Assembly: GCA_905182735.1 (NCBI GenBank)
Contig: CAJJCT010000009.1
Span: 1 to 64,000, forward strand
Direction: 5' to 3'
Length of the DNA: 64,000 nucleotides
From: Candidatus Marivariicella framensis
GTDB taxonomy: Bacteria; Bacteroidota; Bacteroidia; Flavobacteriales; Flavobacteriaceae
Positions 30,693 to 35,015 of the stretch are shown one piece after another. The position numbers and the translations under genes were made by a program. Below the pieces are notes generated by a model. That model searched no databases. It had not been told where the DNA came from and worked only from the letters and a program-made list of their open reading frames with translations. Every line of letters begins with the position of its first letter. Position 1 is the first letter of the stretch.

Positions 30693-31649
30693 TTAATTTT
30701 TAAAAATAGTGTTTAAAATAGTTTTAACCTGATTATTTTCGATTAAAAAAGCATCATGACCATGAACTGAATTTATTTCATAAAAAAAACATTTTTTTTG
30801 TAATTTCTTTAGCCTATTATATGTACTCTTATCTTCATCAGGAATAAACAACAAGTCAGAATCAACAGAAATGAGATGAATTTCTGCTGATATCGGCTCA
30901 ATTAGTGTATCAAAATTTTGATTATTTCTTAAAATATTAATACTACCAAGCAAATGGTTAACCAATAGGTATCCGTCTAAAGTAAATCTATTTTTTAGTG
31001 CTTGACCGTGATGTAATAACCAACTTTCAACATTAAATATTTTTTTGTATTCATTTTCACTCCTAGCAAATCGACTACTAAATGATTCTGGTGTTCTATA
31101 CAATAACATTGCATGCATCCTCGCATCTACAATAGGATCTTTTGAGTTTTTTAATATTTGTTTTTGAATAAAGGTGTTTGCTATTACCCAGTCGGTTGAT
31201 TTCCAGTCCGAAGCAATTGGTATTAAATGTTTACATAGTTTTGGAGATAACACAGCCATTTCCCATGAAATCCCACCTCCTATTGAGCCACCTATTATAG
31301 CATATAAATCAGTAATTCCTAATTTTTTTAATCCATTTATAAATAGTTTTGCAATGAGTCCAGTATGAATTTTCTCAATAGACTTCCATTTATAAGAATC
31401 AATTCCATTTCCAGGGATATTAAATGAAATTACAGTATATAAATTTGTATCAATCACTTTACTTGGACCTACTATTTCACTCCACCAACCGTCAACCCCA
31501 GAAAAGATTGCATTTGCTGTTAAAGGATGATTAATTAAAACAACAGGAGCTGTTCCAATATTTGGGCCAGACATGTAATAAGTTAGAGGGACTTTAATTT
31601 GTCCCTCTAAAATTTCAACAGCTAAAAAGTTTAGTGGTTTTTTATCCAA
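30693..31649 (-). CDS. metX: Homoserine O-acetyltransferase (MetX-like alpha/beta hydrolase)
   Basis: 318 residues, alpha/beta-hydrolase fold. Catalytic Ser in IIGGSIGGGISWE (about residue 121), Asp in SVDSDLLFIPDE and His in HGHDAFLIE, the normal MetX triad. Early motifs include LINHPLTANA and PGNGIDSYKW. It acetylates homoserine for direct sulfhydrylation by MetY, which is encoded 13 nt upstream in the same unit. Shorter than the approximately 350-380 residues of many MetX, but all landmarks are present. MetX versus serine acetyltransferase-like variants cannot be fully excluded. Confidence 0.83.
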   Translation of the reverse strand: MDKKPLNFLAVEILEGQIKVPLTYYMSGPNIGTAPVVLINHPLTANAIFSGVDGWWSEIVGPSKVIDTNLYTVISFNIPGNGIDSYKWKSIEKIHTGLIAKLFINGLKKLGITDLYAIIGGSIGGGISWEMAVLSPKLCKHLIPIASDWKSTDWVIANTFIQKQILKNSKDPIVDARMHAMLLYRTPESFSSRFARSENEYKKIFNVESWLLHHGQALKNRFTLDGYLLVNHLLGSINILRNNQNFDTLIEPISAEIHLISVDSDLLFIPDEDKSTYNRLKKLQKKCFFYEINSVHGHDAFLIENNQVKTILNTIFKN

Positions 31650-31662
31650 TTTGAATATTAAA

Positions 31663-32928
31663 TTAGCCTATTGATTGTTTTAAATCATCAATCAAATCAT
31701 CGATATTCTCAAGCCCCACAGATAATCTGATTAGATCTTCAGTTACCCCCGTGTTTCTCTGCTCTTCAGAAGAAAGTTGTGAATGAGTTGTACTTGCTGG
31801 ATGAATAATTAAAGATTTTGAATCACCTATATTGGCTAGTAATGAAAATAGTTTTGTATTATCTGCGACTTTTTTTCCCGCATTAAAACCTCCTATAAGA
31901 CCAAAAGTGACAATTCCACTTTGACCTTTTGGTAAATATTTTTTTGCTAATTCATTATATTTACTTGATGATAATCCTGGGTAATTTACCCAAGAAACCT
32001 TTTCTTGACTCTGAAGCCATTTAGCTAAAGCAAGTGCGTTTTTTGAATGTTGCTCCATTCTAACTGCTAAAGTTTCTATACCCTGTATAGTCTGAAAGCT
32101 ATTAAATGGACTTGCTGCAGCCCCTAAATCTCTTAACCCTTCTACTCTTATTCTTGCAATAAAAGCAGCTGGCCCAAGTGCTTCGTGATAATTTAGTCCA
32201 TGATAGCTAGGGGAAGGCTCATTAAGCTCTGGAAATAATCCATTTCCATAATCAAAAGTACCCGCATCTATTATAATACCTCCTAATGCCGTTCCATTTC
32301 CATTAATATATTTAGTTGTAGAATGTATAACAATATTTGCTCCATATTTAATGGGGTTTAATAAATAAGGGGTAGCTACAGTATTATCAACAATAAAAGG
32401 AACCTTAGCCTGTTTTGCAAGCTCAGCTATTGCATGTAAATCAATTACATCAAGCTTTGGATTACCAAGTGACTCAGAATAAAATACTCTAGTATTTTCC
32501 TTAACTGCAGATTTAAAATTTATTGGATCATCTGGATCTACAAAAGTAGTAGTTATTCCAAATCTAGGGAGCGTATTACTTAACATGTTATATGTTCCAC
32601 CATACAAACTATTAGAAGCTACAATATGATCCCCTGCTTTAAGAAGCATAAGTAATGCTGTGGAAATAGCAGAAGTGCCCGAAGCAGTTGACACTGCAGC
32701 AATCCCTCCTTCTAGAGTAGCTAATCTTTGTTCGAGCACGTCGTTTGTTGGATTATTTAACCTTGTATAAATATATCCTGGCTCAGCTAACGAAAACAAT
32801 TTAGCGGCATGATCCGAACTATTGAATTCATATGATGTTGATTGATATATAGGAACAGCTCTTGTTCCTTGTGTTTGACTTGTATCATGCCCCGAATGAA
32901 GAGCATTAGTTTCTGTTTTATAACTCAT
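31663..32928 (-). CDS. metY: O-acetylhomoserine sulfhydrylase (MetY, Cys/Met metabolism PLP enzyme)
   Basis: 421 residues, longer than typical MetB/MetC and matching MetY. PLP lysine in [12 protein letters not shown] (about residue 210), [14 protein letters not shown] (about 66-79), and the C-terminal [11 protein letters not shown] and [16 protein letters not shown]. It makes homocysteine from O-acetylhomoserine and sulfide. Its ATG overlaps the metK stop by 4 nt, so the two are translationally coupled. Confidence 0.92.
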
Positions 32929-34181
32929 AATTGAAATATTTTTTTTAATTTATCTATGTAATCTAATTTTTCCCAAGTGAATAATTCCACTTCTTTTGAA
33001 ACCTTACCACTGTAAGGAGAATCAAAAGTTTTAATCAAAGTTTGAGGCGAACGCCCCATATGACCATATGCAGCTGTTTCAGAATAAATTGGATTCCTTA
33101 ACTTTAATCTATTCTCAATACCATATGGAGTTAAATCAAAGATCTTTGAAAGCTTTTCTGAAATTTGAGAATCAGAAAAATTTACTTTTGATTTACCAAA
33201 AGTATCAACTAAAATTGACGTTGGAGATGAAACTCCAATAGCATAACTCAATTGAATCATGACCTCATCAGCTACTCCTGCAGCTACAATATTTTTAGCA
33301 ATATGTCTTGCTGCATATGCTGCTGATCTATCTACCTTACTAGGGTCTTTACCACTAAAAGCTCCTCCTCCATGACCACCTTTACCTCCATATGTGTCAA
33401 CTATGATTTTTCGACCCGTCAAACCTGTGTCTCCGTGGGGACCTCCAATAACAAACTTTCCAGTAGGGTTAACGTAATATTTTATAGAATCGTTTAAGAG
33501 TGACTTTATATGACTAGATTGACTTTCAAAAACTTTAGGTATAACAATTTTAATGATGTCAGATTTTATTTTTGACAGCATTGCATCGTCATCAGAATCA
33601 AAAGGATCATGTTGTGTAGAGACTACTATTGTATCAATTCTGACAGGCTTGTCATTGTCATTATATTCAATTGTAACTTGAGATTTAGCATCTGGCCTTA
33701 AGTAATTAATACGGGTATTACTTCTACGAAAATCTGCAAGAACCTTTAAAATTTGGTGAGACAAATCTAATGCAAGAGGTATATAATTATCAGTTTCATT
33801 ACAAGCATACCCAAACATAATTCCTTGATCACCTGCTCCCTGTTCTTGTTTGATGTTTTTTTCGACTCCTTGACTTATATCCTGAGACTGCTCATGAATT
33901 AGGGAAATTACACCACATGAATCTCCACTAAATTGATATTCTCCTTTTGTGTATCCAATTTTATTTATAGTTTTTCTTGCTATATCTTGGACATCAATAT
34001 ATGTATTGCTTTTAACTTCGCCTGCCAATACAACTTGACCAGTTGTTACGAGTGTTTCACAAGCTACTTTGCTTTCTTCATCAAAGGCAAGAAAATTATC
34101 TAAAAGTGCATCAGAAATTTGATCCGCTACTTTATCGGGATGTCCTTCACTAACAGATTCAGATGTAAAAAAATATGACAT
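32925..34181 (-). CDS. metK: S-adenosylmethionine synthetase
   Basis: 418 residues. The signatures [17 protein letters not shown] (5-21), [12 protein letters not shown] (about 116-127) and [16 protein letters not shown] are all intact. It makes SAM from methionine and ATP. First gene of metK-metY-metX-osmC and preceded by a SAM-II-like riboswitch, giving direct end-product control. Confidence 0.96.
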
Positions 34182-34196
34182 TATTATTTGCTTTTC

Positions 34197-34285
34197 GGAA
34201 GGATTTAATCACAAATTATGTGAAAAGCAACACTGCTTTAGCATTTTTTTATAGAGGGTGCAATCAGTCAAATCCTTCCTCGTTA
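34197..34285 (-). ncRNA. Likely SAM-II riboswitch with long-range switching helix, metK leader
   Basis: Minus strand from about 34285: GAGG, then GATTTGACTGATTGCA (34274-34259), CCTC, an A-rich linker, and ATGCTAAAG (34244-34236). This order and wording match the SAM-II aptamer as I remember it (GAUUU-AC-AUUGCA, A-rich, GCUAAA). GAGG/CCTC closes P1, and GCA pairs with TGC as the pseudoknot. Downstream, AAATCCTTCC (34206-34197) is exactly complementary to GGAAGGATTT (34279-34270), which overlaps the aptamer 5' side, so the two folds exclude each other. Two small hairpins lie between (AAAGCA/TGCTTT and CACA/TGTG). No terminator; control is probably translational. Confidence 0.7.
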
Positions 34286-34290
34286 GTTGT

Positions 34291-34322
34291 CAAAATTACA
34301 ATTTAATTCTTAATTAACAAAA
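34291..34322 (-). promoter_or_regulatory. Promoter of the metK-metY-metX operon
   Basis: Minus strand TTTTG (34322-34318), 19-nt spacer, TAATTTTG (34298-34291). Transcription would start near 34284, exactly at the beginning of the riboswitch-like fold. Confidence 0.7.
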
Positions 34323-34400
34323 TTAATTTTTAAACGTGATTTAGTAATTATTATATAAAAATATCTGTATTTTGCATTGTAGATAATTAATAAATAATTC

Positions 34401-35015
34401 ATGCAAGTATCTGTAGCTGGAAATATTGGTGCTGGTAAAACAAGTCTTACCGAACTTCTTGCCAAACATTATAAATGGGAAGCAAATTTTGAAGATGTGA
34501 TTGACAATCCATATTTAGATGATTTTTATAATCATATGGAAAGGTGGTCGTTTAATCTTCAAATCTATTTTTTAAAAAGCAGGTTTAGTCAAATCTTACA
34601 AAATCAAAAATCAAATAAAACTGTTATTCAGGACAGAACTATATATGAAGACGCTTTTATTTTCGCTCCCAATCTTAATTCCATGGGGTTAATGAACCAA
34701 AGAGATTTTCAAAATTATAGATCGCTTTTTGAACTCATGGAAAGCACTGTTAGTCCTCCCGATCTAATAATCTATGTAAGAAGCTCAATTCCAAACCTAG
34801 TAAGTAAAATTCACAAAAGAGGACGTGAATATGAAAATTCAATAAGCATAGATTATTTAAGTAGATTAAATGAAAGATATGAGGCTTGGGTCTCAACTTA
34901 TGATAAAGGAGAGTTATTAATAATAGACGTAGATAATATTGATTTTGTTAATAATAAAGAAGATTTGAAGAATATAATTAAGGAAGTTGATAATAAATTA
35001 TCTTCAATCGTTTAG
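34401..35015 (+). CDS. Deoxynucleoside kinase
   Basis: 204 residues, dNK/dGK-dAK family. P-loop GNIGAGKTS (7-15), ERWSFNLQIYFL with Trp-Ser-Phe substrate-site residues (about 47-58), the DRTIYEDA motif (about 79-86; equivalent of the DRS motif) and the lid arginines in KIHKRGREYE. It phosphorylates salvaged deoxynucleosides; the specific nucleoside is not readable. It runs divergently from metK and ends at a bidirectional terminator. Confidence 0.88.
   Translation: MQVSVAGNIGAGKTSLTELLAKHYKWEANFEDVIDNPYLDDFYNHMERWSFNLQIYFLKSRFSQILQNQKSNKTVIQDRTIYEDAFIFAPNLNSMGLMNQRDFQNYRSLFELMESTVSPPDLIIYVRSSIPNLVSKIHKRGREYENSISIDYLSRLNERYEAWVSTYDKGELLIIDVDNIDFVNNKEDLKNIIKEVDNKLSSIV

Follow-up and report, generated by a model that had tools for sequence, protein, structure and literature searches.

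A SAM-II riboswitch ahead of metK in Candidatus Marivariicella framensis with a predicted strand-exchange, start-masking platform

The metK leader in the window (the whole stretch of DNA analysed here, 64,000 nucleotides of contig CAJJCT010000009.1 of Candidatus Marivariicella framensis) carries, judged by its covariance-model match, a SAM-II riboswitch aptamer of the known RF01726 type, and we consider it likely that this riboswitch is a translational OFF switch of metK, and via metK also of metY and metX, that operates by strand exchange. The aptamer is already known; the strand-exchange, start-masking platform that accompanies it is on our best reading a new form, because in the open-access literature (for PMC2864571, the main article) we found no description of an anti-aptamer or start-masking platform for the SAM-II class. 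The features on which the argument draws are the following.

34291..34321, minus strand: putative promoter of Bacteroidota type, TTTG at 34321-34318, 19 nt, then TAATTTTG at 34298-34291
34228..34287, minus strand: SAM-II aptamer (RF01726), cmscan 69.9 bits, cut-off 44
34270..34279, minus strand: strand a, GGAAGGATTT, which lies in the aptamer's 5' half and forms the 5' arm of helix H1
34234..34239, minus strand: strand b, AAAGCA, from the aptamer's 3' half, which forms the 5' arm of helix H3 in the predicted free fold
34222..34230, minus strand: strand b', TTGCTTTTC, directly after the aptamer, 5' arm of helix H2
34197..34206, minus strand: strand a', AAATCCTTCC, the anti-aptamer segment that serves as 3' arm of H1
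34188..34196, minus strand: strand c, GAAAAGCAA, 3' arm of H2, ending 6 nt before the ATG
32925..34181, minus strand: metK, methionine adenosyltransferase (SAM synthetase), TIGR01034 507.6 bits, cut-off 309.4, also matched in Pfam
31663..32928, minus strand: metY, O-acetylhomoserine sulfhydrylase, TIGR01326 639.1 bits, cut-off 495.1
30693..31649, minus strand: metX-like homoserine O-acyltransferase (alpha/beta hydrolase), best NCBIfam match MetX

Without SAM, strand a would pair with a' (H1, 10 bp) and strand b with b' (H3, 6 bp), capturing both halves of the aptamer and leaving strand c, beside the AUG, single-stranded so that ribosomes can initiate. With SAM, the aptamer would lock strands a and b and set b' free, and the freed b' would take c (H2, 9 bp), so that the sequence immediately 5' of the AUG is buried. 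The exclusive choices are thus between the aptamer and H1 for strand a, the aptamer and H3 for strand b, and H3 and H2 for strand b'; H1 and H2 are interleaved and geometry need not make them mutually exclusive. The choice is probably made during transcription, at a time when the aptamer exists and a' has yet to be made, and we infer this order of events as we do the sign and size of the regulation. Start masking would in principle be a sufficient OFF mechanism, since initiation in Flavobacterium johnsoniae is described as proceeding without Shine-Dalgarno sites and as tuned by start-codon-proximal structure (PMC6847099); flavobacteria lack such sites and prefer a start region free of structure, so that its concealment would suffice.

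The match to RF01726 spans model positions 1-60 of 60 with an E-value of 1.9e-11 over the window. It bears out the initial annotation in placing a SAM-II core ahead of metK and corrects the Rfam model named there, RF00521 (SAM_alpha), which reaches 13.3 bits, below its cut-off of 36, and is thereby ruled out as the aptamer's family. A P1 stem is formed by GAGG (34281-34278) with CCTC, both parts of the conserved core, GATTTGACTGATTGCA and GCTAAAGCAG, are present in the window's aptamer, and the genes behind it, metK, metY and metX-like, are SAM and methionine genes; the aptamer would be expected to bind SAM. The RF01726 type, known as SAM-II long loops since 2010 from Bacteroidetes and marine sequences (PMC2864571), shares with the window the sequence and fold of the aptamer along the entire model and the Bacteroidetes/marine origin. 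That model covers the aptamer alone, and the window's anti-aptamer strand and start-masking helix fall outside it.

The published description of SAM-II is of a switch that acts by direct occlusion, its ribosome site lying within the pseudoknot (PMC10907184); for the metA riboswitch of S. meliloti, sequestration of the Shine-Dalgarno sequence is described (PMC9373788). The Sargasso Sea metX (PDB 2QWY) and S. meliloti metA representatives belong to the same class as the window's element and are likewise thought to repress translation of SAM/methionine genes (PMC10907184, PMC9373788). In both, as described, the Shine-Dalgarno sequence is hidden directly in the pseudoknot, whereas in the window some 50 nt separate the aptamer's end from the ATG, and the predicted exchange is between separate helices. 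Accordingly, one alternative is that the pseudoknot alone blocks the ribosome and the downstream helices merely tune this effect. It has the textbook mechanism behind it (PMC10907184), as well as one relative, L177 (G083:C3), in which the 3' strand of the aptamer lies within a few nucleotides of the ATG of a metH-like gene (GCTAAAACAATG), an arrangement that looks like direct start-codon occlusion. In the window, however, the aptamer's CAG ends at 34233, 51 nt upstream of the metK ATG, with no ribosome-binding site in or beside the pseudoknot, and direct occlusion needs no anti-aptamer pairing, yet such pairing is selected in most leaders (below). We therefore regard it as unlikely for the metK leader.

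Directly before the aptamer lies TTTG, 19 nt and TAATTTTG, which we take, from the Bacteroidota consensus, to be a promoter in front of the metK leader. A TAnnTTTG box is found in 172 of the 184 regions upstream of such aptamers, where shuffling predicts 11.1, and its usual place is 9-17 nt 5' of the first G of P1; the full form, TTG-N17-23-TAnnTTTG, occurs in 71 of the 184 (0.7 expected). Given this position, transcription is expected to start almost where the aptamer does, with a minus-strand metK leader of about 110 nt. As had been proposed, metK heads metY and metX: metK and metY score above their cut-offs and overlap by 4 nt, and the third gene is metX-like, its MetX match of 159.2 bits lying under the cut-off of 331. 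Divergently from metK, at 34401-35015 on the plus strand of the window, lies a gene for a deoxynucleoside kinase (PF01712, 190 bits).

The leader could also act on transcription, through SAM-dependent termination (Rho-dependent, for instance) or decay of the leader mRNA, with H1 as the anti-termination fold. In alphaproteobacteria SAM-II is described as often followed by terminators (PMC1273637, PMC2258182), and most leaders outside the H2 group lack clear start masking in our predictions. The alphaproteobacterial SAM-II/SAM_alpha elements (RF00521) share with the window the class, the OFF logic and a promoter just before P1 (PMC1273637), and differ from it in the low RF00521 score given above and in having terminators: we found no terminator-like site in 34000-34450 of the window, and the 3' arm of H2 is followed by ATAATA and the start codon instead of a U run. 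Control of transcription is on these grounds quite unlikely, and we return to control of translation by strand exchange.

To follow the leader across the family Flavobacteriaceae, we examined 202 loci, which yielded 185 distinct aptamer leaders; in 177 of these, the leader belongs to metK. For the 283 of 299 family genomes positive for RF01726, the loci examined are the best-scoring ones plus 40 further stretches. Eleven of the 80 named loci, together with L195, gave no match to the aptamer pattern and were left out of all leader counts; an Rfam recheck of five left-out loci found RF01726 in L144, L151 and L153 and none in L125 or L129. In 3 of 144 leaders (L003, L008, L068) the start codon was set by hand.

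Strand a (34279-34270) and strand a' (34206-34197), with 15 nt between the latter and the ATG at 34181, are exact reverse complements, as the initial annotation had noted. A 10-bp exact match arose in 0 of 200 dinucleotide shuffles of the window's leader (p 0.005), and the duplex energy of H1 is -18.3 kcal/mol against a shuffled mean of -10.8 (p 0.015). Nor is the complement lost in close relatives: its longest exact run is 8-12 bp in all seven genomes of the genus (10 bp in L001, 9 in L002, 8 in L003, 12 in L004, 11 in L005, 9 in L009 and 12 in L011). Beyond the genus, the aptamer 5' strand pairs with its own leader at p<0.05, relative to shuffles, in 114 of 177 metK leaders, compared with 3 for an upstream 24-mer against the leader, 4 for the aptamer against coding sequence, 10 for the aptamer against the upstream region and 12 for the reversed aptamer against the leader, each out of 177. 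Swapping in the leader of another locus costs the aptamer 2.1 kcal/mol of pairing on average (z -13.9, 2000 permutations), with z-scores of -2.5 for the reversed aptamer, 0.3 for an upstream segment and 0.8 for a coding segment.

The two arms of H1 also change together. One variable position couples G or A in the aptamer to C or T in the leader (26/4 versus 11/39, Fisher p 2.4e-8); at a second the counts are 44/28 versus 2/9 (Fisher p 0.0098); both tests ignore shared ancestry, and rows with other letters at either position are left out. A MetK tree yielded 2 and 3 independent pairs on supported branches, too few for significance, and among the pairs on this tree the differing leader letters had nearly always changed in the same direction. 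Which aptamer segment is matched depends on the clade: the window's group uses GGAAGGATTT, Marixanthomonas AAGATTTGAC, Lacinutrix GGATTTGAC and some Mesonia CTGATTG. This variation favours pairing over a fixed sequence motif. Together, these comparative data indicate that H1 is not a chance complement, being locus-specific, conserved and coevolving with the aptamer. That the complementary segments are kept for some cause other than alternative RNA helices (a protein site, shared ancestry or AT-rich composition) is very unlikely: the aptamer core is conserved, the leaders are AT-rich, whole leaders are common to related species and the phylogeny-corrected test of H1 is underpowered, yet the four control pairings stay close to background, the matched segment varies between clades, and self-preference is absent from the upstream and coding control segments and weak in the reversed aptamer.

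In the initial annotation, the aptamer and H1 were themselves the mutually exclusive folds of an expression platform without a terminator. The exclusion of the aptamer by a conserved H1 stands, as does the lack of a terminator between 34000 and 34450, but H1 alone does not explain repression: it is a feature of the fold without SAM, and 15 nt lie between its 3' arm and the ATG. The strand-exchange reading draws here on a second helix that the initial annotation did not contain, H2, formed by strand b' (34230-34222) with strand c (34196-34188; p 0.003 in the window), and on H3, a 6-bp helix of TGCTTT of b' (34229-34224) with AAAGCA of b that is predicted in the free RNA. H2-like helices are found at p<0.05 in 26 of 144 leaders and at p<0.01 in 22, and in 31 and 20, respectively, of 177 leaders; the H2 label is missing from 152 of the 177. 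We aligned 21 of the 26 leaders with p<0.05, omitting L015, L079, L136, L145 and L160, whose arms differ in place or sequence. In this alignment, chosen for H2, the arms covary, with 18 double-change cells against 6.1 (sd 2.0) after shuffling and 0 of 500 shuffles as high, and 86.2% of cells are paired compared with 37-53% after a column slide of 1-3.

Of the 7 genus genomes, 5 have H2; it is interrupted in L004 (by eye) and missing from L009 while H1 is retained in both, so H2 is not universal even at this level. Leaders with H2 cluster on the MetK tree (6 changes against 18.9 shuffled) and come mostly from small genomes of about 1.3-2.7 Mb; H3 is weak in L025, L072 and L088 despite their retained H2. 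A start-masking element shared by the leaders without H2 was sought and not found, a weak average shift being all that emerged. In Lacinutrix-type leaders a small GACG/CGTC hairpin was seen by eye.

Folding predicts that H2 forms once the aptamer is in place. In the window, the unpaired probability of positions -15 to -1 is predicted to be 0.32 with the aptamer formed and 0.70 in the free RNA. For the 21 H2 leaders the mean predicted change in accessibility is -0.308 against +0.045 in shuffled leaders, a shift that is partly circular since the set was selected for H2, and for the other 156 leaders it is -0.055 against +0.032. The start region is predicted to be less accessible in the bound fold in 20 of the 21 leaders chosen for H2 and in 113 of the 156 others. 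With the pseudoknot and ligand uncounted, the SAM-free fold of the window (-24.2 kcal/mol) exceeds P1 plus H2 (-12.6 kcal/mol) in stability by 11.6 kcal/mol, which makes an equilibrium switch doubtful and points to a decision during transcription.

The metK leader would be a compact two-state RNA of about 100 nt from P1 to the ATG, with a bare start region as the masked element, and the natural leader variants of its relatives are ready test material. To our knowledge, riboswitch control of translation has been little explored in this phylum, whose mRNAs lack Shine-Dalgarno sequences. Like other shared-strand riboswitches, in which an aptamer strand joins either the bound fold or an alternative helix (PMC2258182), the window's element would use its strands twice; it differs from them in that the predicted capture involves both halves of a pseudoknot aptamer, and in its hidden element, a start region that has no Shine-Dalgarno sequence. 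The locus also suggests that the direct-occlusion description of SAM-II may not hold across a large bacterial family. Tentatively, and with somewhat less than even confidence, we propose that the SAM-II riboswitches of the Flavobacteriaceae, perhaps of Bacteroidota as a whole, form a mechanistic group of their own, which would dispense with direct Shine-Dalgarno occlusion, dismantle the aptamer at low SAM by leader anti-aptamers and free a start-masking strand when SAM is present, and that the switch of the window's genus also took over the methionine-synthesis genes that in relatives are under separate SAM-I control.

RF01726 is present in 53 of 60 relatives. Although metK had been flagged as an unusual SAM-II target, it is the norm here, standing behind the aptamer in 177 of the 185 distinct leaders (best-scoring loci plus the 40 further stretches). 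The metK-metY-metX order was rejected as a general arrangement: of 79 named relatives with enough sequence, at least 1 has a metY motif in the 1.7 kb behind metK, a lower bound because the motif missed metY in the genus members G002 and G006. Within the genus, metY directly follows metK in 5 of 7 genomes (G000, G001, G002, G004 and G006), as it also does in G026; in G005 the contig ends behind metK, and G003 shows no metY within 1.6 kb. The latter (L009/L205), 68% complete, is also the genus member without H2.

SAM-I (RF00162) is found in 37 of the 60 relatives and in 0 of 7 genus genomes, these being incomplete. An operon of metK, metY and metX without SAM-I is a mark of the window's genus. 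Between metK and metY of G007, G017, G024 and G032 there is a SAM-I riboswitch; set against its absence from the seven genus genomes, this suggests that SAM-I was lost in the window's lineage and that SAM-II took over the methionine genes. Both classes occur in 36 of the 60 relatives, and in L012, L015, L021, L022, L023, L084, L089, L096, L112 and L119 they are neighbours, for the most part back to back within one intergenic region. By contrast, a 2007 survey reports no species with both SAM-I and SAM-II (PMC2258182).

Among seven non-metK leaders tested, the anti-aptamer reached p<0.05 in three (L008, L031 and L167) and not in L032, L060, L164 or L166. L008 (G010:C13) and L167 (G267:C7) have SAM-II before metY, each with its own anti-aptamer (p 0.007 and 0.02). 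L031 (1501-2656, G001:C2) is a second SAM-II aptamer in its genome, placed before a short QueF-family gene (TIGR03139 89.1 bits, cut-off 86.9) that is followed by a DUF6580 membrane protein (PF20221); a queuosine-type gene behind a SAM riboswitch is unexpected. In L060, L164 and L166 the gene start behind the aptamer resembles that of the QueF-family gene of L031, and in L032 (G010:C2; anti-aptamer p 0.75) the aptamer lies directly before a gene start that, by eye, is like that of the DUF6580 protein of L031.
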